From: Ascidia mentula
Lineage: Eukaryota; Chordata; Ascidiacea; Phlebobranchia; Ascidiidae
Length of the DNA stretch: 64,000 nucleotides
Reading direction: 5' to 3'
NCBI GenBank assembly: GCA_947561715.1
Contig: OX387203.1
Coordinates: 7,192,001 to 7,256,000, forward strand
The position numbers and the translations under genes are program-made. Numbering within the stretch: position 1 is the stretch's first letter; each line of letters opens with the position of its first letter. The notes under the pieces are model-generated. The model was not told the origin of the DNA. It ran no database searches and saw nothing but the letters and a program-made list of their open reading frames with translations. This document shows, piece after piece, positions 5,860 through 63,553 of the stretch.

Positions 5860-7322
5860 TTACAGTTGTGCACTTTCGCTTTGTTCTGATTTCTGCTGAC
5901 TTCTGGTATTTATCAGGCCAACATCATTTGAACCACTCCTGCTGTTGTTAACAGTTGTGGATGTTGCAATGAACCTTCTGCAGCCAAATGTTTTTAAAAC
6001 TGGATGCAGCCAAAGATTTCTTACACTTGGATTTCTAACACAGTTTACCAAAAAGATAAAAAATCCCTGAAAAAGTTAAAGTAATTTTTTGTAAATATTT
6101 CATGAAACCATTTATTTTATGTGGGAGGTATTTATACCTGTAGGGAATTAACAATTGTAAACAACCATGCCATAATTTCCTGGTAAGTCACATCTTCAGC
6201 TAGAAGCATCAGAAATCCAAATATCCATGTTAAGCCCATCATTGATATTAGTGTAATGGCCACCATGAAGTCCTGTGAACTAGTTCTTTTTTGTGCAGAA
6301 GAGCGGATCTGAAAATGATTTGTAGATGTCAAGGCTTGCTTGAATTTAGTAAATTTACATTGCAGTGACTATGTGAAAAAGGTACAAAATTGTGTAGTTT
6401 AAACTTTGAAATAACTTAATAAAGGGCTAAGTTCCCAATAATTTGCAAGCATTATGTGGACAACACCTTTTCCTTTTTGCAGGTTAAACTGGTGAACACG
6501 GTAACAAACAAAACCAAGTTGAAAAGGGTTAGCAATCCTATTGGCAGAAGAAATCCATAATGCAGAGAACCAAGATGCACCCAACACATGTGTCTTGCTT
6601 GATACGATGATATGAACAAGTTGTCATCTGGAAAACAGCAACTACTGAAATTGTTTCATTAAGTTTGATAAAATAAGGGTTTAAATTTTTGTTGATTATT
6701 TTTTATAGAAAATATTTTTGTTTGTGATTTTGTGCAACTGGCATATTATATACCTGGCCTGTATCTTGGAAGATCATGAACCAATATTGCAACACATGCA
6801 TTTATCAACACAATGAGAAAGGGAACCAAGTATGCAACAATCACTGAAGAAGTTCGAATTTTATCAGATGCTGTGCTCATCACCTTAAGAAAGAGTACAT
6901 GGTGAGTGTATTATTATGTATTAAAGTAGTTTGGTCTTGCCTTAACTACAGCATTGTATAAATCATAAGCGTTAGCACTCATCCAAAACCATGTTGCGAG
7001 CAAAAAGTATTGCAGAAAGGCTGTTGATACGTAACAGCCTGTTCTGTTGTTCACGTTTCCAGCGCTTGTCAAAAAAATGATGTTCACCACAAGAAGACAG
7101 AAACAAATGTTTAGCAGAAACAGAGTAGGCTTCTTTATTCTCAGAGCCCTGTGAGTTAAAGTTATGTTGTTAATTTTACTGAATTTCTATTGTTTTTATC
7201 TTGTAACCCTACTTGACACTGCCGTATATGACCAAAGTAAGCACTAATCCGACTATTGATAAACCACATCCGATGTAAGTTGCAACGTGAAGTGCGTGAG
7301 CTGATGGCAAGACCACTGATTT
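5860..7322 (-). other. Gene A: seven-transmembrane domain and tail exons
   Basis: Exons: TM1 7213-7322 (HVATYIGCGLSIVGLVLTL); TM2-TM3 6941-7148 (TLFLLNICFCLLVVNIIFL, then FWMSANAYDLYNA); TM4 6754-6883; extracellular loop 2 and TM5 6467-6627 (CWVHLGSLHYGFLLPIG); TM6 6138-6308 (GLTWIFGFLMLL); TM7 and tail 5860-6066 (SLQ|GFFIFLVNCVRNP; stop at 5860-5862). GLTWxFGF and NSLQGFFIF are class B2 signatures. The intron after 6941 begins with GC instead of GT. Confidence 0.88.
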
Positions 7323-10300
7323 CTGAAATGTGGTATGAGTTTAACAATGCTAGACTTTTTGTGTTATTTTAATCTACTCACAACAATCATAGCAAAGTGA
7401 CCGAGTTGGTGGCAGTGAAATCGTGGATCTCCATCTGGGCCACTAACAAGTCTGCATGTTTTTGGCACCCAACGAAACATTTTTTGGTCCAAATTAACAC
7501 ATTGAGTTCGAGTCACTTTCTCCTGTTCAGTGTTTAAATTAACAAGTTGGGAACTAATTGAGATTGTGAAGGCGATTCACATATACCTTCAACAGATTTG
7601 ATGGTAGACGAACGCTTCCTTGGCGTGTGGTTCGGTTGTTAAAGATGATGGTGACCGTTTGTTTGGTGTTTGATACACTGAAGTTCTTTATACGAGCTGT
7701 TATCACCTGTAGCAAGGCATAGCTACAACACAGTGTCCAAAAATTGCTAATAATAGCTTAATATTGTTTGTTGGCGTAAGTACCTCGCTTGTGTCATCTT
7801 CAGCCGTTGGGAACAAGGCATTAGTCTGATGAAGAACGAATGATACACGCACTGGACGCTTTGCAGTGTTGCGCTTTGCACGTCCGTAATTCGAACTTAT
7901 GGACATTGCTGCTTGTTCTATCAATTTAGCCGGAATGACGAAATTGATTTGAGGTTTGTAAGCAACACCCGATTGTAGTTTAGGAGCGAAAGTGGCATCA
8001 AAATACTTTCCTGCTTCGGGCATTTGTTCCTCAACCTGAGTCATAAACATGTTGCATTCTTGTGGATGCTATTTTCTCTTTTTACCAAACTTTGATTTCA
8101 ACTTTAAGTCTACCTGCACTGTAATGCTCTTGGTGATCAGGGTAAGAGATGTTTCGTTTCCAGGCAACAAAACGCGGTCTGTAAAATCTTGCAAGACTTT
8201 TAGCAAAGTCTTATGTTGTTCCACTAGTTTTCTGCATAAAGGTATTGATTGGTACTTTTTACGGTTGTGCAAAAGGTTGTATTGTTTCTACATTGACCGT
8301 GATTTTTACGTAATGTAGTTCCCTTTTGCAAAAAGTAATTTTGAAACATTCATAAGAAATTTCGAAGAATTTTTCCGGCATGCTGACAAAGGTAACATCA
8401 TTGCGGTAACTTAAATCCATATAATTTCTAAACATCACCTATGCATATGTTTTTTACCCAGAATCCTATTCATATTACCAGTTGTTGTCAGTCAGTACGT
8501 TGAAACACTTACTGTGAATGAACTTTATCGTTAGGCAAGGATGCCGGCACTTTGTTTGTGACTAAAAGCGTATCCAATAAGCTCTGTCTTGTGATCTGAA
8601 TATACAGTTTTCTTTAAATTCGACTTTCGTAGCGGAAATATTTTGGCTACAAAAAGCGGTGGCAAATGTGAAAAACTATCTATTTTACCTGCACTTTTGT
8701 AGGATCTTTCTGGCTTAATTGAAGCAATGTGCTTGCCACTGCCGCTGTTTCCTCCGTGGTTAAGTTAACAGTTGACGATGACGTAAGTAGTTTTAGGTCC
8801 GTAATTCGTATGCTCACTGATTCAGTGGTTGCAGGTAACTTAAAGTTTAGCGAAATGGTTCTGGTGTGTGTATTTACCACTATCTGCCCATGATATTCGA
8901 CAACAAATTGATAGCAAGGTAGCTTCATCAAAACAATCTATTATTTTCATACAACTGAATGGATGTTACCTGCAGCGCTTTGGACAGTATCGTGGACAAA
9001 TTTACTGAACATGCTAAAACGTGGAGTTTCTCATAGGTAGCCACGTTGGAATCTACTGTGCCTTGTGTGCAAACTGCTGACGCTATTGATCTTCCTGTAA
9101 AACAGAGATCCGTACTGTGAATATCCTCTTTTACTCTCTTTTTTAGATAAGTTGAGACGAATTGTTAAAAATGTCCCATGATGTTGAGCACTACTAAAAA
9201 AAGGGGTTGAACTGCATGCACTTTTTCATTTTTTCTTGCTTTACTTTTTGTGGTTTTGTTGCGTCGTAAACTAAACCAAAACAAGAAACAAAAACAAACC
9301 ATTTCGACACTTTTCGACAGAGTTTGGCGAATCGCCGATACTTGCTCGTCCGAAGGTAAAAGCTTTCCCAGTAACAGAATCATAACCTGTTCCATTGCAG
9401 AATGCTGCGGAAAATTTTTGATTAAATTGTGTGTGGACTCGCTGATGTAAAAGTTAATTACGTTTGCATGTAATTCCATCGCCTTCGTATTTTTTCAGAC
9501 ACATACAGGTGTATGTTGAATAGTCGGCGGAAGGTTTGCATGTTGCCAAGGTGTTATGGCAAGTGGCACACACGTTTGATGGTATTGTAGCTGCAAAAGC
9601 AGAAATCAAAAGTGATCAGAAAATGACTACATGCTAAATTCGTCCATTCAACTTGCTACACTGGCAGGCCAATAACTTCGGAATAAAATGCAACATTTTG
9701 TGACAACATATAATAATTTGCTATGTGCTTACGTGTGCAAAATGTTCCATCGCCGGTGTAACCGTCTAAGCCAGTGGCTCCCGAAGTGGGCCCCCCTGGG
9801 GGCGTTTGCAATCGTACGGGGGGCGCGGAGACTGAATGGGCGATTAGGGGGTGCTTGGTGACATGGCAATTTTTTTCTTATAGCGTAAGTCTGTGTTTCC
9901 CAACCGGTGGTACGTTTACCACAAGTGGTATGCGACCTCATTCCAGGTGGAACGCGAGCACCTTTCCGTAATTTTCTTAGCTCTTACTTGGTGGAACGTG
10001 CGTTCAGCGCATTCACCACTCTTTTAGACGGAAAAAGAAATCGTCTTGATATCGACAATTGAGGAGACTTACGATTGTTTTTGTCCGACATGTAACCTAA
10101 TATTGAGAAATTGGTGTCATTGCACTAACCTCACCCATCGCATTAATTAACAAGCAACAAATAAATTCGTTGTGTTTTTTGTCTGGTCTGCTGGGCGTTG
10201 TTAAATGACTCGGGTGTTTGGGTGGCGGTGCGGAAAAAAAGTTTGAGAAACACTGGTCTAAGCATTTGCACGAGTAGCCAGAGTTATCAACAGAAGGTGT

Positions 10301-13300
10301 GCAATTTGCCAGGTTTTGTGGCAGTTGGACCGCTGACATATGTGCAAGGTATGTGGTATAATAATACCCATAGTCTATTGCCCAAAACTATATCCTTTTG
10401 TTAAATTGTGTTAAATGTTCTCATCCTTTTAGTAAATACTTCGTATCACAGAGCTATACGTTCGTGTCCTAAGGAAAGTTTAATGAGGACTGCACTAGTG
10501 TTTGAAAAGTCCTGTTAGGTGTTTTTTCTTTAATTTTCTTCGTACTAACCTTCTTTATAGCGTAGAAAGAACCCGTTTCCATTTTGATTCGAAAAAGTAC
10601 GAAAAGTGACAAACACAGTCGTTGAGCTATGAAAAGATATATTGTAAATGCTTTGGTTGTATAGTGACAAAACTTCTCCATGGTCGTTTAAAATCTGGAA
10701 ATCCAAAGACAGCTATAAATGTTTAGTTTGTTAAGAAGTTGTTTTAAACAGATCTGAAACTCAAATTATCCAATACTCTATCATACATTTGCAGTATAGA
10801 CCTGGTATATAAATTTTTTGTATCGCAACTTTTGACCTTACCTGAAATGATCCACTTCCCATGAGCGACACTTCTGCAATTTCGATAAAGATTTCTCTTT
10901 TCCGCGTTGAGAAAGCGATTGTCCAATTACATGACAAATTCGGAAGCTGATTGTATGGATATCCTCTTGACTTTAGTTCCTGCCATTGCGTGGTGGCAGG
11001 AAGATAGCCCCCACAGTCTCTAATGTCCACTTTAAAACAAATAAATTTAGCTAGTGATTAGGCTTTTATTAAAATATTCGAAGTAATTGACAATTATAAA
11101 CTAAAATTCAGAGCAAGCTTTAACTTAAGTGCCGGTTTAAAAATTTTTCTTACAATCCAAGGATTGGTTTATTATTATTATCAAAAATGTGAGCAAATAT
11201 AGCCGTAATGTTACGTCACTAGTGAAGACCGTGATAAGGTTTTCAAATGCTGTTGGCTCGCTCCTCTGGCTTCTTAATTACACTTGCTTTACAAGTGTTA
11301 TACCTGTCATTACCTATATCCTATTTGCTTGCCACGTCAACCGCAATACACTAAGAGAAAAGTACTATGCTAATTGTTGCAGCAGGAAAACAACATAGGC
11401 ATATTAAAACGAATGAGTAATGGGTAATATGGTTGGGGCCTTCTATTTTTGTGAGTTAAGTACTTGTTACCTTGTTCCGTTGTTACGTTTGCAGAAAAAC
11501 GACTTCGTCTGCTGTCACTTTTTGTCTTAAAGTAGATGCGCACAAACTTGTTTAAAGGCAATGTTTCCTTTAAAAATGCGCTGACGTTCTGATCGGAAAA
11601 CTTTCTCCCCTCGTTGTACAGCTGCAAAGGTAGAACCAAGCTCTAATTACCAAGCAGGCACAAAAAAAAATTACCTCTAACTTGTCTGATGCTTGTAGAT
11701 TTAATTGTAGAAAACGTAAATTTATATAGTATCCGTATGAAAACGGATTTAGTAACCATCCGCAAGTACGATTAGGTTGTGCGAAGTTTGGAAATCCTTC
11801 CGATGAAACAATGGTGCTGTTTCCGACTGTTATGTCGGACCCACATCTTGTAACTAGTAGAAAAAGCATTTTAGAAAATTGTGTTGACCATGTAAGATAG
11901 ACAACTTGCAACAATCAGATGCAAGTGTGTGGTCAACAGGTTTGAAACTGAACATGTGATTGACTGTATACTAGTGGAAATCATTGTACGCTTTAGGTTA
12001 AAGAAGTCAATTACTGTTGTACATCTTTCTCTTACAGTTTGATCTGATCCAATACGGTAAAAGTGCAGCTTGAAAACTAGGTTTTACCTTCTTTGATTTC
12101 TATCTCAAATGGTACAATTCCGTTGATGTTGTTTAGAGTTAAATAGACAGTCAGTTGATTGCTGTGCGTTACGATGTTAATATCCTTTGTAGGTCCGTAG
12201 AAGTCTCCCAGGAGTTTGTTTTCAAACAACTGCAAACAAGGTTTACAGGTTCTATGCAAACCACAGAACTCAAATTATCAAATGACATGTAAATATGCAA
12301 AATCAGTAGGCTGGTTACGTCATTTAGAAGTATTTTGGTCAGAAAAATATTAGAGGAGTGAAAGAAATGAAATTTCTACCAGTATACCGAATGTTTGTTA
12401 GAAAAGTATTATGCAACATTTTCAAACATTATGTTTATTTTACTGTTAATTGTAAATAGCCCTTACCTGTACTCGCACGTTGCTTTTAGGGTTGGAAAAA
12501 ATATTAATTATTTTAGTGTGTATGCTGTTCGAAAGGTTTGACGGCGAAATCTGCAAAAAGCAATTGACGCCATTCGCGTAAACAGCTTGCGACGCGAAAA
12601 GGTTTAATATGTTCTTGACTTCTCTCACGTTTCCAGTGAAGTGGCAATCTTAAGAATAAACAAATATATATTTTCCTCATAACCATCATGGTTTTATCGG
12701 TGCCTATGCCATAATTCATTGTATATTGTTCTTAAGCGTAGTTGCTTTTTTTCGCAAAATAAACATGATTTGATTTGATTTATCAGTGACCTTAACTATG
12801 GTAGTTGTCCCTCGTGATGCGACTTGGTGACGACATTTGCAACGCGGGACGCTACTTCAGAAAGCAACGACTTACCCATCTTTTTCAGATAATAGAGAAT
12901 TAAGAAATGTGTCATAGCTACTGAATTGAAGCTATAATAATAACCTTGTAGGGCTAATGATCCATTAAAGTCAATGTGTTGTTTGGCAGTTAGATTTAGC
13001 TCTAGAAATACGACAGCAGTTCGAACTCCGAAAAACCTCATCGCCTGCCCGGGGCTCACTGTAGCCCTGAATCCACGCACGTCGTCATAAACCTGTTGTA
13101 AACAAAATGTAATTACCTAAATCATTATTTTTCTCATTAAAAGAAAAAAATGAAGTGTCCACCTCAGAATATTGCCAAATTTACAGATCTTCCAGAACTT
13201 ACTTTCAGAACAGTGGTTGGTGAAGAAGTGTTAGAAACCTGCAAATGCAGTGTTAATAACGATCTCGTGTCAATCCACCAACCGCAGAAAATTTGACTCT

Positions 13301-16300
13301 GGTTAGTCACTGGTATTTCGCTTGAAGAGAACACGCCATTCGTTTCCAAAATAGTGCGACCGCATCTAGGAACTTAAAAGCATGCTGTGGTGTTTCGTCC
13401 TAAATATACAAGAAAAGAAATACTTACCTTCTTTAAACTTAAAGGTAGCAGCATAGCCAGAGTCGTATAGATCTGCTGGAGTCTCATGTACGACCAGTTT
13501 CACATTGTCTATGGGTTCACGGAGCGTGAGCCACCTTGTAATCTACACATAAGTTATTTAAAGTTCGTGAAAGTTTGGGTTACATATGGAGGCAAAGTTA
13601 ATTTGAAAATAATTTTTTCATAAAGACCAACCTGAAAGACACGGCGTATGTTTGTGTTAGCAAACTTGACCACTTCGATGTACAAACTTTTTGTACGATT
13701 GAAGTTAATTTTCCAACTGCAAGTTCGCATATTCACCGGAGTAACATTCGGCAAACCGTATGGGTAAGCTATGCGTTCGGTGGTGTTGGCCACAAAGCTA
13801 CCTCCGCAAACTGTAAAGTTTCACAATTTATAGCAAAACTGTTGTACAATCGAATAAAAAAAGTTAACGCTGTAACAGTTTGAGATTTACTACCCAATGT
13901 TCTACAACATAATGAGCAATTATAGTTTACCATTTCAGAATAGGCATCTATATTATATAGCAATATAGTCAAGCGTTAATAAAATACTTCTTTAGCTCTG
14001 CTTTCTTGAATTGACTAATGTCGTATTTTCTTATTGGTTCAAATTGTATGTTTGCTATGTTTTCTGCACCAGTGACAGACATACCTCGAGTTTGGAATTC
14101 GCCAGTAAAGCTACTGCCCGAAGGGATATGATTGCCCGTTTTAAAGAATATTCGCATCACGCTAGAGAAGACAAACAGTTGGTGTGGAATGGTGTTGTTT
14201 AGAGTCAGTTGATTTGATAGGGACTCGTCGTATATCTTGATAAAAAACCCAAGTGCGAAAAGGTTTTGCCGATAATTGAACAAATATTCTGTCTATGTAG
14301 ATATAAAATGTCGATATACGTTGTTGTGTGGCAGGGATTTTGAAACTAATAATAAAACCTCATATTGGAAGGCGACATCCTCGAAAAAAACGAAATGAGA
14401 TCGTGATGGAGTGTTTTGTGCACTTGTCGTTTTGCTACATACTTGTATACTTACCTTAAAGATGGTGTTGTTCTTTTCCACCTGGAAGTTAATTAAATTA
14501 AAAACCATGTTTTCGTCAAACTGTTTGATGGAATAATGCACGTTCCAACCACACAAAAGGTTCGAATTGGCGTTTTGGGGGTAGTTTGGTGATTTGATAA
14601 TTCCTGTTGTAGCGTTCGTTGAGTAACCACAAGTCGGTACTGAAGAAAATACCAAAAAATTAAACTTAAATCTTTGAGTCAAATAGCATATGCTAGAAAT
14701 ATAGAAAGGGTTTTGGTCAATATGAAGCAACGTCAAATAACACGTCCGAATAAAATTGTATGAACCCTCACATTTATACACAAGATCTATATCCATGTTT
14801 AGTATATTCTTTCCTTTTATCTATTCTGAAGGTTTTATACGTTTATTGTCAGCAAAAACAAATAATATTTACGACTTACAAGTTTTAAGGTAGGCTACTA
14901 AGTGTTAAGTTCCTTACTTTCGATGAACTCGATTGAAAAACCAGTGAGCTGCAGGGAACGGGCAGTGTATACAATGTTTAAAGGGAATTGATGAGCAATT
15001 ATTTCATGCACAGGTTGATCGTAGTTGAAAACTCCGAGACTGCTAGTGTCTTCAAAAATCTTCATGTAACAAATATCATATGTGGTGTTCCTGTACGCTC
15101 GCAATTACATTTGGGAATCAGGTTTCCAAAGAAAAACACTTTTATTGACAAGAAGCCTACTATTTCTAGCCATATTTAAGAAAATCCTTCTGATTACACA
15201 ACATTCTACTTGGGTGCAAAGTATCTGGAGTTAAGTAGTCTAAATAAAAAAGCCAAAGCTAGAATGCTGTTTATCATAATGCTGGTAAACGTTTCGAACT
15301 CATAGAGGGTTCATCATCAGTACTCAAATGAGCAGCTTACAAAAAGCGTCAAGGTAAAGAGGGGAAACAAAAGACAGAAGGGAACAGCAATTTTTTTCCC
15401 AGAAGAGGATGAAAACAACAATCTACGATTCACAAAAAATATGATTTTGCTTGTACTTGCGTTCGACTGCAGCATCCAAGTGTATAATTAGGGTGTCCGG
15501 ACACCTTTAGATGTATACTCATAGATGGTTGTGTAGGTGTGATTGACACTCGACACAGAATGTCCCGAGCCTTATAGTATGGAAATCCCGGCGAGGTAAC
15601 AGTTTGAGGCGTGGCCGTTGCTTTGAGAGTCTTCGTGCAAGCTAAATGTTGTTTACCGTTTCGGAAAAAACTTTTGACTAGGAATAATTCATGAATTATG
15701 CTATGATAGCTTGCGTTTGCTGGTTGCGCAATGGATGAGGTTTATTTTAAGAAATTGTGAAAACGAAGGCAATGCTTTAAATAATAAATGATGGCACAGT
15801 GCCAGACTTATACATGTAACTGGATTGGTTGGTTGTACTGGAAATAAAAAATCTTTATGTGGTTTGTAATGGTACCAAATTCGAATGTTTGTCAGAACTT
15901 GTTGTGTTCGAAAGATAAATAATCATTCATAACAGCTTGTTGGCATACTAATGTTTCACTACAACTGGAAAGTCTATATAGACAACTTGGTCGGTTACGA
16001 GGCATTTTTGTCGGTCAGTTTGTTTATCGCTGACCAAGTAGTATCCTAATAGGTAAAAAAAACTTGACAAGCACCACCACCATGATATATCGATGTAGAC
16101 ATTTTACGTTATTACGGTACAAAACTACTCACTTTGATGGGAGTAATTTCCACTGAAAGGCATGCCGTAATCTGGCCCGCTTTCATAATAAACTCGTAAA
16201 ATGGAGTCAGATACAAGATCCATGTACTGGGGATGGGTGTTGAGATCACTTATGAGACCATTTTCATCATATACCTGCATTAAAAAACGCCATAGTTCTC

Positions 16301-19133: not shown

Positions 19134-19729
19134 TGTTAGATGTCTAACTAACTCAAAAGATATAATCTATAGCTCTCGTTTCTTTGTTCAAATGGTTTGC
19201 AAATGTGCAATTTTTTTCTTTGTCACTTCCCTTAAAAGTTTCTCAATAACTTCATTTGCTTGGCTGCACGAACATCGTTCTTACTCAGCATTCTATAGAT
19301 AGCGGTACATCCGGAGTATTTTGAGGCCAACAATTATTTTGATGAAATGCACGCCAACTGACTGCTTGGTAATGTTGTTTCGGTTGGGCGAGGATAAAGC
19401 TCATTCGTTATTACTAAACACACTATTGCGGATGACGACTACGGCCTTTGTTGTTATTTGATTGTGTGGCCATGTTGCTTTGTGGTTGGTAGTTTAATTT
19501 CCTCCCACTCAAGTTTCGTTGGTTTTGTAAAACACCAACGATGCACGCGTCATTTTTTGCTGGTAGCAATTCGCTACTTGCTATTAAGATGCTTATATGT
19601 CAATAGTTCAACAATTTATGTACGAAATGAAATCAATACAATAAAGAACTGATTATGTTTGCAAACTCTCAAACAAGTCCAACAAAGGTATGTACATAAC
19701 ATTTAGACATATTCATTGCACATTGTTGT
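19134..19729 (-). promoter_or_regulatory. Gene A promoter region and gene B downstream spacer
   Basis: This 596-bp spacer separates the stop of gene B from the start of gene A. It is highly similar to the DNA upstream of gene B (32638-33180), including long near-identical runs between about 19270 and 19600. An ETS-type motif, CCGGATGT on the minus strand (19307-19314), lies about 175 bp upstream of the ATG, at the same distance as in genes B and C. No clear TATA box is seen. Confidence 0.5.
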
Positions 19730-35330: not shown

Positions 35331-36323
35331 TTCCAGCATTGCACCCAGACACAAGGTCCAGCATCACATTCGCACAACTGGACCACCGGTTCATTCAAAG
35401 GCACGTCGTTTATCTCCTGAAAAGCTTGCAATCGCTAGAGCGGAGTTTGTCAAGATGCTTCAAATGGGGATCATTCGTCGTTTATCTAGTCCTTGGGCCG
35501 CACCACTACATATGGTTCCAAAGTCATCAGGTGAATGGCGCCCCTGCGGTGACTACCGCCGCCTAAATGTGTCCACCAGCCAGATCGCTACAGCATTCCG
35601 CATATCCAAGACTTCACATCGCGTTTGTCCGGCGCCACGATATTTTCGAAGATCGATCTAGTTCGGGGCTACCACCAGGTCCCTTTTGCAGAGAAAGACA
35701 TCCAAAAAAACTGCTATCATAACTCCGTTTGGATTATTCGAATTCTTAAGAATGCCTTTTGGCCTGAAAACTGCAGTCCAGACTTTTCAACGGCTTAAGG
35801 ACCAGGTATGTCAATCTTTACCATTTGTTTTTGTTTACCTGGACGACAAACTGGTGGCCAACACTTCCCCAAGTCAACATAAATTACAAGATCTCACCAC
35901 TTCAAGCGCAGAACTCGTTTACGGCTTAACCATTTCCCAACCTGGGGATTTTCCTGCTGCTGCAGACACGTCTATCAAGTATTCCGAGTTTGTACAAACT
36001 CTCCGTCGGGCGATTCAAACATTATTACCGCAGCCAATGTCGCGCCATTGTCGAACTCGTGCATTTGTGTCACCTTTGTTACGCAATTGCACCTATGTTT
36101 TCGTGCGAAAACATGGATATCGCCCCCCTCTTTCGCTACCGTATGATTGTCCTTTCAAAGTGTGTGCTCCTCACGAAAAGTATTTTGTGATATACATTTC
36201 AGGTGTTCATTTCGATTGATCGCCTTACACCTGCTATAGTCGACTGCTACAAACCGGTACCTGCTGGACAAGCTCCTAAAAGAGGGCGTCCTAAAAACAA
36301 CATCCCGCTTCTGGGGGGAGTAA

Positions 36324-36467: not shown

Positions 36468-36551
36468 AACTGATTATATTTGCAAACCCTGATACAAGTT
36501 TCCAACAAAGGTATGTACATAACATTGGACATATTCATTGCACATTATTGT

Positions 36552-50148: not shown

Positions 50149-51858
50149 CTACATGATTGATTGGCCTTCCTCTGAGCGCTTATTTCCTCTAGTGCGAGTT
50201 TGGCCAGTTTCAGCCGAACCGCTCTTTGAGCTGGTGGCAGTTGAGGAAGTCGTTTCGCGTCTTCCGCATCCAAGCTTCGACAAGATAGGATGTAGCCACA
50301 AACTTCGCACATTCGGATTGCGAATGCAGTTCGAAAGAAAGATGAAAAATCCCTGACAATGGATAATAAACGTCAAAATGTAAAATAAAATCCACAATTA
50401 CCATTGCATTAGAGATAAACGTGGTTAAGAGGGTTTTTGGGATTATAAGTTTATGCGTACGTAGTTGGCTGATGAATCTATTTAGGAAATAACGGATCGG
50501 AAATTAAGGGATTATCTAAAGGGAATTGGGGATAGGAATTATTTGTAGATAATCCGACTTGATTGTTTCGGAAAGTAAACTGGCATTTCATGTTACCTGT
50601 AGAGAATTTACAACTGTAAAGAGCCATGCCATAATCGACTGGTATGTTACGTCATCAGCAACCAACATTAGAAACCCAAATATCCAAGTCAGACCCATCA
50701 TCAAGATCAGCGTTATTGCAAGCAGGAAATCCTGAGAGCTCGTTCGCTTTTGAGCTGACGATCGAATCTGTTGAATTTGCGGTTGTTAACAAAAGAAATG
50801 ATCATCAATTTGAAATTACATGATATATGTAAAGCCACTGCAGGCAGGTGGTGGAAATTTTCCCATACAAACAAATTTGTATATTTAATCATAACGCAAC
50901 TATCAAAATATACATGGGGTTCTTGAAATGCTTCTGTGTAGCTAACCTTGTGTTTTCTGCATGTGAGACTGCTGAACACAATTGCAAACAGAACAATATT
51001 GAACAAAAGCAGTAGTCCGATGGGCAAAAGAAAGCCATAATGCAGAGAGCTGAGATGCACCCAACACATGTGTCTTGCTTGATACGATGATACGAACAAA
51101 TTGTCATCTGCAAAAAGTATTCTGTTAACAAAATATTGCACTCACAAAAGTTTCGCATATATTTTTTGCATTGAAAACCTGAAAGGTAGCACCAATGTAA
51201 TATGAATGAAAAAATACAATATAGACTTTTGTATTACCGATGAAAAATGTAATGAACATCACGTTTGAATATTATTACCTGGTCTGTATCTTGGAATATC
51301 GTAGTAAAGTATCGTGACGCAGGCGTTCACCAGCACTATGATCAGAGGTACCAGATACGATACCACAATAGACGTGATGCGTACTTTGTCAGATGAAGTG
51401 CTCATCACCTGCAAACACGCACACAACGTAAAGTCGGATGGTTTATTCGGAAAATTGTAGATTATCTACCTTCACCAGAGCATTGTAAAGGTCGTAGGCG
51501 TTGGCACTCATCCAAAACCATGCGGCAAGTAGGAAATATTGTAGGAATGCCGTGGAAATGTAACATTCTATCCTATTCTCAACGTTTCCAGCGCTGGTCA
51601 AGAAGATGGCGTTCACCACAAGCAGACACACACAGATGTTTAGAAGAAATAGAGTTGGTTTCCTTGCTCTCAGTGTTCTACAAACACGTAGTTAATATTA
51701 AATGGTGCGGATGATGTATTGGGCCTGAAATTCATTAACTTTACTCACGTTACGCTGATATAGATGACGAAGGTCAGAACAAGGCCAGCCATAGACAGAC
51801 CGCATCCTATGTATGTAGCGATGTGAAGAGCGTGCGCTGACGGAAGAACAACTGATTT
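50149..51858 (-). other. Gene D: seven-transmembrane domain and tail exons
   Basis: TM1 51749-51858; TM2-TM3 51470-51677; TM4 51279-51408; TM5 50947-51107; TM6 50597-50767; TM7 and tail 50149-50352 (stop at 50149-50151). The TM domain is the best conserved part relative to A-C (CWVHLSSLHYGFLLPIGLL; GLTWIFGF). The tail diverges and is basic and Ser/Thr-rich. Confidence 0.87.
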
Positions 51859-54800
51859 CTTTAAAAAATATATCTTCAAAAAAGGTTTCATGTTCGGTTA
51901 TGATTACATTGCACTTACAACAATCATCGCGAAGTGACCAAGTTTATGGCAGTGGAACCTTGGGTCCCCATCTTGGCCGCTTACCAACACGCAGGCGTTG
52001 GGAACCCAGCGAAAACGCTTTTTGTCCAAGCTCACACATTGTGTTCTGGTCACTGTTTCCTAAGAAGAAGGATTAAATTTATTTTTCAGGTAATTCTTAC
52101 ACCAACTTCAAACCTTCAAGGGATTTGATTCATGCCGAATTCCACCCTGTCGTTTGGTTCGGTTGTTGAACGTAATGTTCACGAACTCCTTGCTCTTTGA
52201 AACAGTGAAACCCTTTATGTGTGCTGTTATTACCTGTAAAATATTATGGTTTACAGATTACATATAGCTATATTGTGATTTCTTTTCCGTATGCTGGCAT
52301 GTTATGGCTTATGTGACAGTACTTATCAGGCACGTCACAACAGTTTGGTGGCTATCCTGCTTAAGTTTAAATCTCAATGGAAGGCAAACCCATACTTCGC
52401 TTATTTCGTCCTCCACGGTTGGAAAAAGTGTGCTGCTTTTGTGAAGGACGAACGATACTCGCACAGGTTTCTCGTCCAAATTCCTCTTTATTCGACCTTG
52501 CGATTCACCGCTGGATGTTGCTGCAATTTCCAACAACTCGGCTGGTATAGTAAAACTGATAGGAGGCTCGTATGGGACCCCTGATGCTTGAACGGGAGAG
52601 AAAGAAACATCAGAGTAATGACCACCAGTGGACTTCTGCTCCTTGATCTACCGCGATAGTGTGTATGGAAACGTTATATTAAACCTCAGATACGTCAATG
52701 CTTTTATTCCTATGATAGTTTGCTGAAGTTTTACCTGTATTGTGATGTCTCTTGTCTTCAAGTTCAGTGATGTGCTATTTCCGGGAAGCTGAACTTGATT
52801 TGTGAAATCTTGCAAAACCTTGATTAGAGTCTTTTTTTGTTCCTTTAGTTTCCTTTAACCAAAGTAATTGTTGCTTTACACACATGATAGTAATACTGAG
52901 CTCTGTATTTTGACAATTTAACATGAAATAAAGAATTGTTATTCTGATAAAACTTTTGCAAAAAGAAAAGACGTGAACCTATTTTGGCGTTATAAATATT
53001 TTTTTTTTTTTTAACCATTAGTCGACAAATATAGTTGCAACGTACTTTGTTGTTTCCCGTCTGTTGGCCAGAGACGCCGATACTTGATTGGTTATTAACA
53101 CTGTATCAAGCAGATTCTGTCTGGTAATCTACGTGAAAACATTTTACTTCATGTAAAGCATTTGTTAATTTACATAATTGACACCACGTACCTTTACTTT
53201 TGAAGCAACTATACTCAGCTGAAGAAGTGTATTTGTAACTACTGCCGTTTCCTCTGCGCTCAAGTTCGTGTTTGTGGATGACGTGACGAGCCTTAGGATT
53301 GTTAAGGAAGATGTGATTGCTTTTGAAGTAGTTGGTTTCTGTGTAAACAGCATATTTTTGATATAAATGTGTTGTCACAAAGCAAAATAATCCGACAGCT
53401 TGGGAAAATATAACTAAACAGTTAAATATTTCCTTAGCTGTGCAACTCAATAACGGTCACTTGTTCAATTAATCCAACAAACCTTGAAAATATGGGCGAC
53501 AACTGTGGATAAATTTGTTGCGCAAGGTAAACTTTGAAGTTTTGCAAATGAAGCAATATCTTGATTCAACTGACTTCTTAAGCAGACTGTAGAAGCGATT
53601 GATCTACCTACAAAGTCCGGTTTATAAGTCAAAACGACGTATGTACGTTTATAATAAACTTTCCAACCGTTACGGCACTTTTGCTTGGAGAGAACCGATT
53701 CTCTGATGTTCCCACGTCCAAAGTTGTACCATGTATTGGTTACGTCGTCATACAATACGGTTTCATTGCAGAAAGCTGTAACAAATTCCTTTTTAATGAA
53801 CGTTTTCGACAATACTTGTGTACGAGGAGTAATATACGTACGATTGCATATTGTTCCGTCTCCTTTGTACCCCACTGCGCATGCGCAGGAGTAAGCACTG
53901 TTGTTTTGTCGAGGAGTACAAGATGCCAAGGTCTTGTGGCAAGTGGAATTTGTACAAACATTTGAAATACCTGGTTGATACAAAAAATTAATTATTTTCT
54001 TTTAACTGATAAAACTGCTTTTGACATGTTTTGGGCGAAATCTTTTGGTTAAGCTTCTAAGATGCAATGAGCCACTGGACTAAATTGCAGATGTTTATTA
54101 TGCTCTTGCTTGTACAGCAGTCGTATTAATTTCGTAAAATACGCTGACACAGGATTTCTGTCAAAACTACAAAACTAATCAAGAATCTTCTCAGTTGTTC
54201 GCGTGAAATACTTGTTTGCAAGGACAATATACATACGATTACATGTTGTTCCATCTCCTTCGTACCCCAATAAGCATGAGCAGGTGTACGCGCTGTTGTC
54301 TGGCAGTGGTGTGCAACTTGCCAAAGTTTTGTGGCACGTAGAATTAATGCAGACATTTGGATTACCTGGTTTAAACAAACGTAAATTATTTTTTTTCTTA
54401 TCCCATCTGTTTTTACGAAATGAGGTAACACTTTCACAAGGCTTTCAACAAAATTACTTTGCGTTTGGATAAATTGTGTGGCGAAAGCGCTCACTTGTCA
54501 ATAAGCCAATCTGCAACTATTTACACAACCCTTCCATGAAGGGAGATACTGCATATTGGATTTGGCTACAGTAATATACTAACCTTCTCTGTAGCGAAGC
54601 AAAAATCCACCGCGAGCTTTACGCTGTGTAACAAACGAAATTGTGACATCTGTTTCTGAAAATATTTCAACCCCTTTTTGATTTCCCTGCAAACGCGAAA
54701 GCTGCAAACCATCTGATTGGCTGATCTGATAGGATGATAAAAATAGTAATGTTGTTTTTTCTGAGAAAAAAAATAGCGCTTGTTTTTACTTTTCTGATGT

Positions 54801-57800
54801 AATATCAAATTGTTTTGCTAAATTATAACTTTTAATTTCTGGCCAAGTTAATCAAATACTCATAACATTGTGAACAGTTTAATCACATAACATTGTGAAC
54901 ATTTTTTGGATACGATTGGTTTCGTGTTCAGTGGGACGTGGCCTTTCGGTATAATTTAATTACTGCAAATTCCCAGAAAGCAATCGTGTTTCTATGAAAC
55001 CTTGGGTACCTGGAGCCAAGAGTGCGAATCGATAATCTCAAGGTCCACTTTGATATGCACCATCTTTTTGGGCGTTGTTTTGTTAATGCGCCAGGAACAG
55101 TCCAGATTATGAAGGTGCACATACGGGTATCCTCTTGAAGATATCTCTTGCCATTCGGGCAAGGCAATTAGTTTTTCCCCACAATTCCTCTGATCAACTG
55201 CGAAACCATACGATTATACGAGTTTGTAGTTTATCGCATGCTCACGAAATCATGTCAACATTACCGAATTGTCTACTGATGTTGACAGAAAATCTACTTT
55301 GTTGGGTGTTCGTTTCAAAGTATATTCGCATCGTGTTGGTGAACGGCCACGTTGAGGAAAGAAACTGGCTTGTGTTGTAGAATTGGTTTGCCAACGTATA
55401 TATCTGCATACATTGTGGACATGGATTTGTAGTATCACATTATTTGATGAGCATTTGATTACAATGTTTATTAGCGGTTGTGTTTTGTGTTGTTCTACAT
55501 TCAGAAGAAAGATTTTGACCAAGATTTTCGAGTTGAAAATACAACATATTCTAAATTATTTTAGCTACCATTTCAAATTTTAGCTACCTAGTCAAATCTA
55601 ACCTCAAGCTTATCCATTGGAGACAAAGTTAAACTCAGCATTTTAAGGGCAAGAAAGCTGCCACTTCCGGTGAGTGTCCAACCGCACCTAAGACCACGAG
55701 GTGCAAAACTCGGAAATCCCGGCGAACTTATAATGCTCCCTGTTGTCATTCTTTCGGTGGTGCCGCAGGTCGGAACTGAAATAAATACACTGGCTGTGTT
55801 ATAATCCCCTAGTATGAATTCGTAAATACCTGGGATCCCTTGTTAAATTGATATCGTTTCTGTGGATTTTAGGAGAAAACCACTCCCAAATATAACGTTG
55901 GCTTATGCACCAAATGTCGTTTGTAATTATTTGATAGTTAAAAAAGTTTAAAAGTTTTACAAAAGCTTGCCTTCTTCTATGTCAATGAGGAAAGTCAAGA
56001 AGGCATTTTTGCGTTGTAAGGTGGGTATGATCGTAACAGACGGAGAATTTGAGACGATGTTAACATCTCGCTCTTTTCCAAGTGGCACCTTTATCCGTAC
56101 TCCGCCCCCTTCGGCCATCTGCATTTTTTTTTCATTATGACAGAATATGTCGCTACAGCTTTCAAATATGTTTTTTTTGTAATTTCTGGCACAAGTTTTC
56201 TTGCGATTTGCATAGGTTCGTATACACAAACAACGCAAAAATTAAAAACCAATACCTATTAACCTCAAGCGTAATGTCTAAAATAATAGTAATCTTAGTT
56301 AAAAGATATTTGTTTTTCCTTACCTCAATTGCATTAGTTGTGTTCTGGTCAAGGTACAAATCATACACTTTTATGTACACGCTGCTGTTTTGATTACCAG
56401 GCGATACAATTGTGTACTCGCAGGCATGAGTTGATTGGTAGTAGAGCAAACTGTTCGAAATGTCACTGAAGTACCGTTTCGCCTCAGTGAAGTTCAGATG
56501 TCTATTGCATGCTATAAAAATGTGTAAGGAATGTGTATATGTTGCCATAAATACGTTGTAGTGTGCGAAAGGCATATATATGCATATATACTACATATGT
56601 AATCACCAAAAAATTTAAATTATTTTTTTGTGATCACACTGGGATTCGAACCCAGGATATCCTGTCACGAATCCCGGTCAGCTTTTCTTTCTAATAGTAA
56701 AAAGGTATAAAAAAATATACTGCAAACTTTAAAATATTTTTTTTTAATCTGACAAACACACCTTTAAAAACATATCATTAAAAAAGTATGCTAAACCGTC
56801 AGCACAAACAACGGGTTATCAATCTACACAGAAAACAACATGACCGTGCTTTAGACTCACATCCTGTCGTGTAGGATGCATAAAAATCAATTCCATTTGT
56901 GATTCTATTGTTGAGTTCAAGGTATACTTGGATCGGTTGGTAATCATAAAATATTGCTCTTTGGCCTGCAATTACGTCCACCCACTTGCCGATGCCACTT
57001 GTATACACCTGCAGATCAACATTTTCGTTAAACTATCAGAAGGTGATTTCTGTGCGATTAATCACGTACATCACACGTGGTAGTACTCTCAAGCCTTTAA
57101 TTCTGTCTTTGTGACCCCTTATGGTTATTAGTTCACTTTACGTTTGTTCTGCTATGAAAAATAATTTAATTGTTAAATATGAATGTGTTTTTGTACAAAA
57201 CTCCCCCTTTGTATGCTAATATTTACACAGCTACATGTTCTAGTAATAGCTGTACACTGTCCGAAACAGAAGACCTTTATTGCTGTCGGTGGGAAAGATG
57301 TGTTGGCAACGTTTAGCGTCAGAGCGTATGGACTGCGCGAGTATTTGGTTAAGTCCCAACTGCAAACAATACGAGACTGGTTCGAAGAAGGTATTTCTTT
57401 AGAAGAAAATTCTCCGTCAAAGCTGTAAATTTCCCGTCCGCATGTTTGCACTGGAAATTAACATAATATCTTAAAGAGTCAGCTTTGTGAGCCAACAAAG
57501 TAAGAAAAAACGTATTAAAACTGATAAAATGGTCAAAGTGTACCGACCTTGCGAGTATGCGAACGTCATGGTAGGGCCTGAGAATGATACTGTAGTGGTT
57601 TGAGAACGAACGACAAAGATTTTGTCGGTTACCTCCCTAAGGTGAGCAAGCCTATAAATCTGAAATAAATGTATGTTGTTTCAAGCATTTCTAATTATGT
57701 CACAAGCAATTATAATAATGTTTAATCCAAGTTAATTGTACCGAAAATGAAGTATACACATTATTAGGATTTGGCATTCGAAGAAGCTTGATATAAATGG

Positions 57801-60800
57801 TGTTAGAAGGTTCCGCAGTAATTCTCCATTTGCAAATTCTGATCGGGGGTACATGCAATACTCCGGGAATTCCAAATGGACTCAAAAATTGTTCTGAAAC
57901 ATTTGCACGAAATGTTCCTGCACAATCTGTGAAATGCATTTCATTAAAAAATACCCACCAATTTTTTGCATTGCAAGCTATGCTTTCTTCCTAGTATCAA
58001 TTCATTTTCACTAGCTGGCGTAATGCACGAATAAGTCAAGAAATTTAAAGGCTGGCCGATAATGCAGACAGCATTTCTATGTCTTCTGTAAGACATATCG
58101 GCAAAAACTTCTGTCATCATCAGTTCAATAAAATAGCTAAACCTTTTTACATTTTATTTGAAAAATGTCACCATGTATGCTTAAGACGAATTATGAAGAC
58201 CACAAACATGGAATGGAAAATATATTGCAACATATCTGCATAAACAGCTATTATAACTTCTCAAAGCAATCACCAATTTTTTGCCTTTTGTGCCACATAC
58301 CTTTCATGTTATAATCACCAAAAAGCCTGGTGTTTGAAAGAGAGCGGTTTGCTGTTTCAAAATAAACACGAAGAGTTGTTCTCGATGTAAATAACTGATC
58401 ATAATTGGGTGTGTTGTTGAGCAGGCGGTGGATAAGATCCCCGGTATACACCTATGAGGGAATAAATTTGTTGCAATTTTTTGCGCACATACATTGGAAA
58501 GCGTGCACATTTCTAGTCTAGTGCATTTATTATAACTATAAAAAAAATTACAAAAAATATACAACAAATTATAACTTTAATAGAACGGTAGTACCATTTT
58601 TAAACACGGGATGTTCCGCAACTAATTAATCTTTTGCTTTAATTTTACACAATGTTTGGATTTGCGGCATTACCTCAAAAATGTCGTGGTACAGATCTAT
58701 CTCTAATACGTTGCTGATAACAAGAGTTCGCAACTGATTCATCCCCTGTGGGTGGTAAAAAGTCCAACCGCACACTAAGTTTGGTCCCGCTTTTTGCGGG
58801 TATTTAGGTGATGAAATCGATCCACTTGTTTCATTCGTCGAAAATCCACAAGTCGGTACTGAAAAACCATCGGAAATTATATGCAAGTTACAAATTGCTA
58901 GTTCTAAAGGAAATGCCTATTATCAGCAGTATATAACAAATAAAACTCATACCTTCCCTGTATACAATGGAATACCCGCGACTTCCTTTTTCAGAAGCGT
59001 GGTCAACTTTTACTGGAAATTTGTGAGCAACTAACTGAATTGTTTGAGAAATGCCATAGTAAAATCCAATTTGAGATGGTCCTTCGAAGACCTGCAATAA
59101 AACATTTCATATGAACATCAGATATAGTTGATGTTAAACGCCAGTCATTATGAGTTGGCATTTGTTTGCGGTGTGAGATTCCGTACATGTATAAATAGTT
59201 CTGTAGGGAGTATAGAGAATGTCTTGTTACGCTTAGCCCGGTTACATGGCCTTGGCTTGTGGGAAACTTGGCAGGCCAACAAAAATGGCCGTTGTTGGTT
59301 TACATGGCCAGTGAAACACGGCTTTTGTTGAAAATGCGGCCAAGCCACTTTTTCGGCCACAATTTCGCGGCCATGTGAACTTACTGCCAACAGTAGCCAA
59401 ATAATAGGCACAGTGGCTGGAAAACGTGGTCAGGTCTGGTTTTCATTTACTTTAAAGTGGCCATAACCGGGCTGGGAGGTATTTTGGTTGAAGAAATTTT
59501 AGTTCCTACAGCAACAACTTTCCTGCCTTAAACTTAATTTCAATATGTGCATTGCTGTTGGCCTCTAATACTTAGGTGTGAATTTACCGTAGTCCTGCTG
59601 CAACAACGTGTATTATTAGGATTTCCCGAAATCTTTAACTGGACGCTTTTGATTGGGCCAGAGGGATTGATGGTCAAGTTGCAAGCAAATCTTGTTGGTC
59701 GAAAAAATGGAAATCCTGGTGTTGTTATGGTTTGAGAAATCGGTGTTGCCGTTAGTGTTTTATGGCAAACTACAAAAGAAGACTTTACTTTACAGTAAAT
59801 TGTGTCACTTGAAAGTAAATTTAGCACATTATATGCAAATACACTGCAAAACTACGTTTAGATTTAGACCACTTTACCATTGTATCGGTAGGTTGCCTTA
59901 AATGGTTTTCCTGTTGTTGTACCGGAATTGTAGTAAACCCGGAGAACATTTTCTGTAGCAAAATCCCTATACGTGTCCTTGTACAAATCTGCCAGAAAGC
60001 CATGCATGTCGTACACCTTGGTAACAATGAAAAATTGCCTGTTTGTTTCATCGCTTTTGAGCGCCATTCCGGTGCAAGAGTTTTTTTTCAAAACGACATT
60101 TCGGCAAGATTTTACGACTGGTACGTCCCAAAACTTAGAAAAGTATAGTTGAATCATTAAAAATCTGTTCGGTTTGCTTATTGTTTTGTTTCAATTAAAA
60201 CTAAACTAATTTCAAGTATAAAGCAAATACACTATAGCGTTGCGTACCTGCAAAACGGCACTTGGATCGCTGCTGTGCTGCACGGTCCCAAAAATCATTT
60301 GAAAAACCTTTTCCTTCACTGCAGCTGTGGTGCTGTAGATATTCCAGGCGCACTGCGTATTTGGTGGGACGTTTTGTGGAAAATTGGTAGAGTTTAATTT
60401 TCCGTTCAATACGTTGGTGTCGAAACCACATTTTGTCACTGAAAGCAGTCAACAAGACTCTATGACATTACAAAGTATATTTTACGACGCGCTATGTATT
60501 GTTTCGCCTAAAATTCTAAGAATAAAAGGTGAATAAGCGATCTAAATATCAGCTCATTTTATAAAAACAACAGATTAAAATACAATAATAAACTTCATGT
60601 TCATGTGAGCAATTTTACTAGTACTCAGAATCTACATTAAAACGGTAGTTTCCACAATATTTCTTAAAAAGCAACAAGTTGATTTATTAAAAGTCGTAAT
60701 TGGTGAACCAGGATGTTGTGGAAGGCCAAACGAGTTGTGTTGCGCACAAATAACATGACTTGCGCAAAAGCTCGGATCTTTAACTTCCCTTTGTTCGATG

Positions 60801-63553
60801 CACGTTTCTTATGCTTGCGACCCGAAAGGCAGGAGATGCGTCATGTTGATAGTTTCACAACGTTGCCGTTATATTTTTACGTTGGATTCACTAAGGAAGT
60901 TTCCAGCAAAATTTAAGGCAGTGTGATGTGCTTTAGGCCGTCACCATATGTAAGTTAAAATGATCCACACAAATGTATCAACTTCACACTGTAAATTTCA
61001 TAAAAATATAAACAGGCTTCGAATGCAGCGAAGGTTTAGTAATTAGTTCCTAACATCTGTACGAGTAACGTACTACTGCATCATATGTGTACAAAATGTC
61101 AAAATGAGAGCTATATTTTGATAAAAATAAAGATATTCGTAACAAAGACAAACTTTAATTCTTTCGAGTACACTGTTATTGCTCGCTTCAACCAGTTTCC
61201 AGAACCAGAATATCATTACTGTGATCAAATGCGATTTATGAGACTGTATTTAGGGCGTGGTCGGTTTTGTTAACAACCATACATTTTGCAAACCAAGTCC
61301 TGAAATACAAGCCTTCAAAGCAAAAACAAATCCCCCAGCATCTTAAGTACACTGTTTGTTTTGTGATAACAAAAGCAAGTACTTCACGACATTTACGTTT
61401 TTTATTTGCGCTATCTGACCTTGCGAGTAAGTTAAACGAAAGCCGCCCATGATTCCTGTGGCTCTCACTTGAAGCGACGGGGAATGGACGATTAGGTTAA
61501 AGGGATCGTAGACGTTTTTATTTCTTCGTCCTCCTAATGTAGTGAATATCCGATGATTGATGTTAGGGTGGGAACTATTTATCAGTAAGATCTGGATGCA
61601 ATACAATCAATCACATGTATTAACATGCAATGTTCATTCGGAAAGTACAAACCAGATCTTACGTCAAATATGCCGCGGGTGGAATTTGTTTCTAAAACTT
61701 GCACTTTAATGCTTTTGTTGCTGGACAGTGGTCGTATTGTCCACGTACATAGCAAGCTACCGACGTCATGTGATGGGTAGCCGGGTGTTTGTAAAATATG
61801 TTCACTGTCTGTTGCTGTCAGATCCCTGTTGCAAGCTGAAACATGGAAAGTAGTTCAGTACGTTAGTTAAGAGTTAGTTTGGTTTGCAACTTTGTCACAA
61901 AATTAATATTGGCTGACATATGAAAAGTTATAATTCTTTTATTTTTGAGGGAGTGACGGAGGTACATTCAAGCCTTCAGGTGTTACTTGTTCAGCGACAT
62001 TCTGCTACCATAACGAAGCCAGTTTTGATCATCATATGAACGGACAATATTCGTTTTTATTTTACTTGTATAGTTGAAGTTTGCAGAAAACTTCATGGCT
62101 GTTGTTTTTTTGGGACCGGTTTCCATGTACACTCGCAGGAAATATTTGTGATATAAACTGGAGTTGCCGGTCACTGTTCTCATCCGTTCACTGGGATTAT
62201 AAATCTGGGAATATGCAATGTAACGTATATACCAAATTTTGTGAAACGTGTAAAATATGTAAAAAAGGTATTTTAAAACTTGCATCGTAACTGATTTATC
62301 AGAGAAACCAACAGTTTAGGAACATTTTTACCAAACATCATCCAGTTTAAAAATTCTTTGAACATCTTTTGTGAGAACGTGTATATAATTATACATGCAT
62401 GTAAACATAAAAAATATTTAGCTTGCCTCAACCAAGTCCGACTTCTCTGAAAACTCAACATTGTGCAATAATAAGTGTAGCAAGTAGGATTGCTGTAGTT
62501 GTGGCTTATCTACTACCAAGTTCCAACCGCATTTGGTGTTGGGAGGGGCAAAGGATGGAAAGTTCGGGGTTGAGAAACTACCAGAGAGAAGGAGTGTGGA
62601 ACCACACGGATTGACTGCATAAAAGTCATAACAAATTTAAATGATAATTAGTGTCAAAGTATTTCTTGCCATCGGCTGTTCTACTTGCATAACAGTTTTG
62701 ACATGCTTTATGAACGTGATGGAATAATAAACTAGTATAGCGAAATAAACAGCACCAATACACATATAATCGATAGAAAATTACCTTCCATGTATTGAAG
62801 ACGAAAGGATATTCCTTTAGACCTCCAAGATGGCCGCCGGGGCCCAACATGCTTAACCATTGCCGTTCCATTGTTCACGACAATTTTGACGTCATTTCCG
62901 GAAGTTTGCGCAGGAAAACTGACAATGGTGTAAATCCCATCATACACCTGCAAAAGACGATTTTTGTTGGTGTGATTTACAGCAACAGTTGTTTCGTAAT
63001 ATTGCTATATGAAAGAACAATATGCTATGGGTTAGTGAGATAAGAGTATTTATAAATGAGTCTAAAAAGAAAGATTTAATATAGGTCGTTATCACTTTTG
63101 TAATAAGCTATCTTATTGAGACATTTTTTTTGCAAAAACACAAATGATTCTTGCAAAGTTTAAATTAAATGATATTTAACAGCGCATTAATTCGCTTAAA
63201 TGCATTTTTACAAGCATGTTACGCTGTATCCTACCTGGATTGACGATCCCCAGGTTTGGGAGTGGTTCACAAAGTGCAAATAAACACTTTTTCCTGGATT
63301 AGTTGCCCTTATTATCCAATCACAAGATGTCGAGTCATTTGCATAGTTTTGGATTTCCTGCAGTCTGGTTGTGGCGTTGTAAAAACCGCCACATGCTTAA
63401 GGAACAGTAACAGACTGTTTCACATATATAATGAAATTATCCACGTGCATAATAACGAATTTAAATGCAACTGTGGCGAAAGGAACCTTACTTACCCGAT
63501 GTTTTACATAACACGACGGCCAGAGCGATGAAAACCATTGGCAAAATTAGCAT
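50149..63553 (-). CDS. Receptor gene D: divergent adhesion GPCR with 11 CUB and two EGF domains
   Basis: The most divergent paralogue, with the same 39-exon plan (5976 nt; 1991 aa plus stop). The ATG at 63551-63553 opens MLILPMVFIALAVVLCKTS, a signal peptide. The CUB domains keep their one-to-one order with A-C but share only part of their residues, so the architecture predates the A/B/C split. The tail is Ser/Thr-rich and ends GQSIM, a possible class I PDZ ligand that A-C lack. Two introns start with GC (after 62427 and after 55971). A MITE and a tRNA-like relic sit in introns. Both EGF exons are intact. Confidence 0.83.
51919..54365 (-). other. Gene D: EGF1, EGF2, HRM-like, GAIN and GPS exons
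   Basis: EGF1 54237-54365 (CHKTLASC, GYEGDGTTC); EGF2 53842-53970 (GYKGDGTIC); HRM-like 53668-53775 and 53483-53607; GAIN 53192-53338, 53046-53128, 52735-52852, 52396-52647 and 52114-52233; GPS 51919-52059. The basic site is R-I-K-R (52484-52495) at the same place as RAKR in the others. The GPS ends CHKLGHFAMIV: K-L-G instead of H-L-S/T. The two EGFs are very similar to each other, consistent with a local exon duplication. Confidence 0.82.
56631..56692 (-). pseudogene. tRNA-like relic in a gene D intron
   Basis: The minus strand has a good T-arm (CTGGGTTCGAATCCCAG, 56639-56655) with the B-box GGTTCGAATCC, preceded by an anticodon-arm-like segment. A D-arm and a matching acceptor strand are not seen, so this is a tRNA-derived remnant, perhaps from a SINE, and not a working tRNA gene. 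Confidence 0.35.
59235..59473. mobile_element. MITE of about 239 bp in a gene D intron
   Basis: Terminal inverted repeats AGCCCGGTTACATGGCC (left) and GGCCATAACCGGGCT (right) frame a segment rich in GGCC runs, inside the intron between the two CUB5 exons of gene D. No coding capacity. A target duplication is not obvious, so the superfamily is uncertain. Confidence 0.7.

Follow-up and report, generated by a model that had tools for sequence, protein, structure and literature searches.

The window C71:7192001-7256000, a stretch of 64,000 nucleotides in a tunicate assembly of 195.8 Mb and 79 contigs, carries four tandem genes (G1 to G4) that would each join an arm of eleven CUB domains to the seven-transmembrane (7TM) domain of an adhesion-type G protein-coupled receptor (aGPCR). 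We favor, with a probability of roughly 0.6, the explanation that these genes form a tandem tunicate family of class-B2 receptors whose eleven-CUB arms are not cleaved off, whose copies are diversifying, and which is accompanied by soluble paralogues. This explanation is built on features of the DNA itself, namely the gene order, the exon plan, the encoded domains, the loss of the motif at the GPCR proteolysis site (GPS), a mosaic pattern among the copies, and a stop after the eighth CUB in neighboring sister genes.

Four genes on one exon plan

Self-comparison of the window gives four direct repeat units, spaced by about 13.9, 16.8 and 13.9 kb and all on the minus strand (Table 1), which bears out the original prediction of four head-to-tail genes. 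Each unit is composed of a signal-peptide (SP) exon, 22 CUB exons, its EGF exon or exons, a cysteine-bearing linker exon, and 13 exons over the GAIN/GPS region and the 7TM domain. Every CUB is split over two exons, with phase 1 outside and phase 0 inside, and the eleven CUB positions foreseen for each gene are recovered in all four units. A hydrophobic start exon, recognized by eye and with no predictor, is present at the 5' end of each. The models of G3 and G4 have 39 exons (2145 and 2141 residues) with compatible phases and zero internal stops. The 39-exon plan proposed for all four genes thus describes these two, but G1, with its EGF1 exon split, and G2, with half of that exon lost, share 38 of the exons. 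Total lengths divisible by three had also been claimed; the fits do have compatible phases, but these were imposed and do not amount to an independent test.

The phase chain was taken from free fits, with the 39 exons of the original prediction in mind, and then imposed, which makes the result a consistency test; hydrophobic starts received a bonus in the fit. An unconstrained exon search, in which G1-G4 came out with 40-56 exons, some of them small and spurious, and with read-through of introns, was dropped in favor of this chain. The start exon and CUB9b of the fitted G1 model were wrong and were both reset by homology, the SP exon of G2 was placed by homology where the fit had chosen a shorter start, and the G4 fit is poor at CUB9b, CUB11b, X/N1 and N2.

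Profile searches agree with the domain content that had been proposed. When earlier versions of the spliced G4 and G2 models were scanned whole, Pfam matched CUB (E 9.4e-30 and 4.5e-35, respectively) and 7tm_2 (E 6.9e-35 and 2.4e-30) in both. EGF_3 was found in G4 and fell below cut-off in G2, and the pentraxin family had no match at E up to 1 in either model. Reading frames are common to G4 and G1-G3 exon by exon, with 35-77% amino-acid identity by domain group (in this comparison, and in that of substitution rates, the values for G4 at CUB9-11 and EGF2-N are unreliable). At the DNA level, most matches of G4 to G1-G3 are short and exon-sized; longer ones (66-67%) occur only in the 7TM part. 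Shared frames and exon-sized DNA matches together mean that the resemblance exceeds chance.

The arm itself has an internal order. A tree was made of 79 CUBs, eleven from each of five genes and eight from each of three, such that eight genes contribute to CUB1-8 and five to CUB9-11; it draws on the window genes, on a related gene on contig C73 (H1), and on CUB-only sister genes (C5-C7), both described below. Ten of the eleven positions are monophyletic, the exception being CUB2, in a tree for which CUB9b and CUB11b of G4 and CUB11b of H1 were entered by hand, and in which CUB8 of H1 and CUB7 and CUB8 of C6 were mis-trimmed. With midpoint rooting, odd and even CUBs fall into two clades, and similarity within genes also follows parity (same-parity pairs 60 vs 38, p 6e-5). 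Monophyly by position and clades by parity argue for an arm of the form (A-B)x5+A that was largely built before the copies split. Typical CUBs have a second disulphide. Here, in 27 of the 41 CUBs listed, which come from four genes, the only cysteines are two in the first half, so the second disulphide is missing in those domains; an additional CC pair occurs in CUB5, and the remaining extra cysteines lie mostly in over-extended ends.

A class-B2 receptor that is predicted not to cleave itself

Among PDB chains, the 7TM domain of G4 matches ADGRG2 best (E 6.3e-35), and 30 PDB sequences, including ADGRE5, ADGRL3, ADGRG6 and ADGRD1, match at 1e-5 or better. Along with the Pfam matches to CUB and 7tm_2, these solved receptors support the proposal of an adhesion-type GPCR with an 11-CUB arm, and the best hits, used here in place of a tree, suggest kinship to group VIII (ADGRG).

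Aligned to ADGRD1 and ADGRF1, a profile of the receptors' GPS region falls on the GPS of both (E 0.004-0.011). The H-L-T/S of the site is replaced by QLG in G1, G2, G3 and H1 and by KLG in G4, and the third GPS cysteine is replaced by F in the alignment with ADGRD1 and ADGRF1. Because nucleophile and histidine are both lost, self-cleavage is predicted to be absent, and the receptors would stay uncleaved at the GPS. The autoproteolytic H-L-T/S is not found in every adhesion GPCR. Cleavage-deficient receptors that keep function have been described, as for LAT-1 and for the basal activity of ADGRD1, ADGRG1 and ADGRG2 (PMC13197933).

The genome holds many relatives of this half of the protein. At least 45 places match the TM2-3 exon of the family (from 148 listed matches, the best 120 of 476 candidates having been scored), and C71, C73 and C69 hold many of these as tandem clusters. 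GPS matches number at least 150, from the 150 candidates that were scored out of 218. Other class-B2 receptors, with 7tm_2 matches too, form a very large tandem array at C2:1509000-1798000, where 29 of those 150 matches lie.

Arms and signaling halves appear to evolve differently

We compared the ratio of nonsynonymous to synonymous substitution rates (dN/dS) between the CUBs and the downstream part of the genes, using pairs among G1-G3 and no G4 pair. Between G1 and G3, the ratio is 0.50 (0.39-0.62) in the CUBs and 0.21 (0.16-0.29) downstream (Fisher 9e-6); between G2 and G3 it is 0.29 and 0.22, with overlapping intervals and a Fisher value of 0.001. In the 7TM domain it is 0.16-0.18 in three close pairs.

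The copies also differ in how much of their length is alike. Over long stretches, G1 and G3 resemble each other at about 88%. G1 and G2 have a synonymous rate (dS) of 0.76 in the CUBs and 0.19 downstream, are similar across introns at 5856-9689 (85%) and at 18694-19611 (85%), and in the middle share exon-sized matches and one 1.1-kb stretch at 70%. G2 thus reads as a mosaic, with a diverged CUB arm on a homogenised signaling half. The G1/G2 pattern is that of a probable conversion or unequal exchange with its joint at EGF1, the site of the damage in G2.

On the high-coordinate side, the cluster extends past the window with three CUB-only genes, C5-C7, and then four more distant 7TM genes. The latter lie at C71:7294900-7346000, one of them on the plus strand. 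All three CUB-only genes fit 17 exons that encode a signal peptide, CUB1-8 and a terminal peptide ...YQLGFERKPRPTRN(T/I)V before the stop; the 17-exon chain with its final stop was imposed in these fits, and the common end peptide was not. Their proteins are predicted to be secreted. The window genes match this stretch by CUB exons only (open reading frames of at least 25 residues, E up to 1e-4), and the identity of C6 by CUB group is 48-75% to G4 and 35-40% to G3. Between C5 and C6, dN/dS is 0.36 in CUB1-4 and 0.78 in CUB5-8 (Fisher 0.007); the pairs C6-C7 and C5-C7 point in the same direction and are not significant (p 0.17 and 0.07).

The original prediction ventured that the genes are a recognition family. 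The idea is strengthened by the higher G1-G3 arm ratio and by the CUB-only paralogues, and we infer that recognition is the most likely function; a part in immunity or between gametes would be conjecture, as would any ligand or pattern of expression. The most serious competitor, unlikely as we judge it, is that adhesion GPCRs simply expanded in this lineage and serve adhesion in structure or development, for instance by binding matrix in the manner of ADGRG6, without recognition polymorphism. The abundance of class-B2 receptors in the genome and a dN/dS below 1 everywhere would suit such an expansion, but recognition loci more typically show exchange between arm and signaling half, a faster arm as in G1-G3, and CUB-only paralogues in a cluster. 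Distinctly more doubtful is a stronger proposal, that the C71 cluster is a new kind of tunicate recognition locus, in which uncleavable eleven-CUB GPCRs and secreted CUB1-8 ligands or decoys would serve allorecognition, gamete or pathogen recognition, with arms swapped onto a homogenised half.

The arm and the 7TM domain as probable parts of one gene

Each unit could instead hold two genes, one for a secreted 11-CUB protein and, after it, one for a short adhesion GPCR, and the stop-terminated CUB-only genes next door lend this some plausibility. We nevertheless regard it as improbable. CUB11 and EGF1 are separated by 194 bp in G3 and by 218 bp in G4, a gap with phase-1 ends on both sides and no AATAAA (it contains one ATTAAA in G3, and two and three ATGs, respectively); this leaves little room for a terminator, a promoter and an SP exon, no signal-peptide predictor having been run on the gap. 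The arm of C5-C7, moreover, stops after CUB8 and not after CUB11.

Relatives elsewhere keep the same order. On contig C73, between 3.8435 and 3.952 Mb, five units have matches to CUB3-4, CUB10-11, EGF and 7TM in conserved order, with an extra lone 7TM match at 3969781. One of these, H1 (C73 3843527-3858243), could be modelled end to end on the same chain and is open across the CUB-EGF junction, a fit of 38 exons with one EGF outscoring one of 39 (4887 vs 4857). D9, one of the four more distant 7TM genes on C71, combines, in a rough model, six stretches of CUB with four of EGF and a GPS that passes the curated cut-off, and it has matched 7TM exons. Given the colinear order on C73, the H1 model, D9 and the short gap, we take the CUB and 7TM blocks as one gene, probably with one transcript each. 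The original prediction had named separate CUB and 7TM genes as the outcome that would refute it, and at the DNA level the blocks stay together. As side observations, the GPS of D9 reads HFA in place of HLT/S, and EGF-linker-N1 matches are doubled in two of the C73 units (3866392-3869216 and 3903341-3906524), suggesting internal duplication of the stalk.

Damage at the EGF1 exon

On either side of the insertion within the EGF1 exon of G1 stands an 8-bp direct repeat, GCTTAGAC on the minus strand, at 9764-9771 and 10256-10263. The insertion has the termini CAGTGTTTCTCAAAC / CCACTG; by these termini and the repeat it resembles a hAT element. Matches to its open reading frames recur at C71 7341484-7341975, and as a query against plasmids it had no match. 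In G2, a loss of about 70 bp takes away the 3' half of EGF1 (G2 23539-23541 joins G3 40213 and 40284). This exon is of phase 1 at both ends in G3 and G4, and such a symmetric exon can be skipped in frame.

The two lesions, and the long similarity of G1 and G3, could point to a decaying pseudogene cluster or to haplotypes that the assembler set next to each other, which we find hardly credible, as 38-39 exons are open with no internal stop in the four fitted units, the 7TM domain has its low dN/dS, the EGF1 exon is skippable, the divergence of G2 and G4 is too great for alleles, and G2 sits between G1 and G3.

Between G2 and G3 lies a degenerate retroelement fragment, which contains an inverted, 90% identical copy of the CUB1a exon at 35150-35331. 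A tRNA scan of the window found none, and a tandem-repeat scan found three short arrays.

Table 1. Coordinates of the receptor genes, their parts and neighboring features (positions in the window, except for C5-C7, which lie outside it and are given on C71)
Feature	Position	Strand	Description
G1	5860-19133	-	SP exon 19076-19133, 11 CUBs, interrupted EGF1 exon, EGF2, GPS/7TM, stop at 5860
G2	19730-32637	-	SP exon 32580-32637, 11 CUBs, one EGF (EGF1 exon truncated), GPS/7TM; putative mosaic gene
G3	36552-49093	-	cleanest 39-exon model; SP 49036-49093; CUB1a 48712-48875 to CUB11b 40580-40721
G3, downstream part		-	EGF1 40257-40385, EGF2 39981-40118, GPS exon 37984-38124, 7TM exons from 37924 to stop at 36552
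G3, GPS exon	37984-38124	-	reads ...RFHCHQLGHFAMIV
G3, CUB11-EGF1 intron	40386-40579	-	194 bp, phase 1
G4	50149-63553	-	39-exon gene; SP 63496-63553 (MLILPMVFIALAVVLCKTS), 11 CUBs, 7TM to stop at 50149
G4, downstream part		-	EGF1 54237-54365, EGF2 53824-53970, GPS exon 51919-52059; AATAAA immediately 3' of stop
G4, CUB11-EGF1 intron	54366-54583	-	218 bp, phase 1
Insertion inside G1 EGF1 exon	9772-10255		484 bp, hAT-like
Retroelement fragment between G2 and G3	34050-36216	+	degenerate; RVT_1 E 2e-6, 28.1 bits vs cut-off 29.6
C5	7256678-7263505	-	CUB-only gene, tandem, beyond G4
C6	7265052-7271634	-	CUB-only gene, tandem
C7	7273398-7280011	-	CUB-only gene, tandem

Discussion

Mitochondrial COX1 (contig C79) has 16 AGR codons, 13 of which stand on glycines of mammalian COX1 in an alignment read by eye, and this use of AGR for glycine is that of the ascidian mitochondrial code and marks the genome as a tunicate's. 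In such a genome, the closest known likenesses to the C71 receptors are ADGRG6 (GPR126), ADGRG2 and ADGRG4, which are alike in the class-B2 7TM domain; ADGRG6 also has a CUB in its arm. It has one CUB, as the original prediction said of the vertebrate receptor. CUB domains among adhesion GPCRs reach further than that comparison implied, however, with an extended CUB in ADGRB3 (PMC13197933) and a CUB domain in adhesion GPCRs of amphioxus, likewise an invertebrate chordate, for which the text compared gives neither CUB arrays nor secreted partners (PMC2246102). The domains listed for ADGRG6 include CUB and pentraxin (PMC13197933), whereas the receptors here have eleven CUBs, no pentraxin match in the two models scanned, and a degenerate GPS. 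Ciona intestinalis has a comparable tunicate repertoire with many unclassified members, comprising 30 adhesion GPCRs, among which 21 of the 24 unclassified ones have a GPS only, and the word CUB is absent from the main text of that paper (PMC2396169). A literature search, outside which most subscription papers and preprints fell, found no adhesion GPCR with multiple CUB domains, and none with a CUB in Botryllus; for CUB-bearing receptors in tunicates at large it led to the amphioxus paper alone, and in Ciona to a single paper, on zebrafish Adgrg6.

With the fuhc-sec/fuhc-tm locus of Botryllus schlosseri, the C71 cluster shares its layout only. To our knowledge, the fuhc proteins have no CUB arm and no 7TM domain. 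At that recognition locus, a secreted and a membrane protein are encoded side by side (PMC12065747). A fuhc-type locus is marked by extreme allelic polymorphism that decides compatibility, whereas the C71 cluster is known from one assembly.

Several observations weigh against an uncleaved, diversifying receptor family. From the gene models, the imposed phases and start bonus count here, as do several exon boundaries that are over-extended, approximate or hand-corrected. The GPS family PF01825 is weak in all five members (E up to 10), with a best E of 0.0023 and 14.2 bits for member 1 against a cut-off of 22.5, and the GAIN model had no match in the Pfam scans. Self-cleavage is essential for many adhesion GPCRs, for example ADGRF5 (PMC13197933). 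The G1 copy could be damaged by its insertion. As to the rates, the G1-G3 CUB ratio is uneven by group (0.24, 0.78, 0.48, 0.43 and 0.62), with CUB1-2 (0.24) as low as the downstream part and CUB3-4 at 0.78, and G1 and G2 have similar ratios in CUBs (0.28) and downstream (0.27; Fisher on raw counts 0.04). No group exceeds 1, and positive selection is thus not demonstrated.

If the family is nonetheless as we propose, each gene would encode one protein with a signal peptide, eleven CUBs of alternating A and B type, one or two EGFs, a degenerate GAIN/GPS, a 7TM domain and a short tail. The long CUB arm may bind a ligand on another cell or in a body fluid, and with the GPS nucleophile lost it would remain covalently attached. 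Binding or pulling might then shift an internal Stachel-like segment (GHFAMIV...) within the 7TM domain, giving rise to signaling without shedding. The copies would diversify mainly in the arm, while recombination would homogenise the signaling half and, for G1 and G2, the 5' end; the products of C5-C7 may act as secreted partners that share these ligands, or as decoys for them.

Should transcripts confirm these genes, they would represent a family of adhesion GPCRs whose CUB arm is unusually long and in which self-cleavage has apparently been abandoned, and, if this is true, a natural test of aGPCR signaling through a covalently tethered arm. The CUB-only paralogues and mosaic arms make the cluster a concrete candidate recognition system, open to testing, in the group that is sister to the vertebrates.

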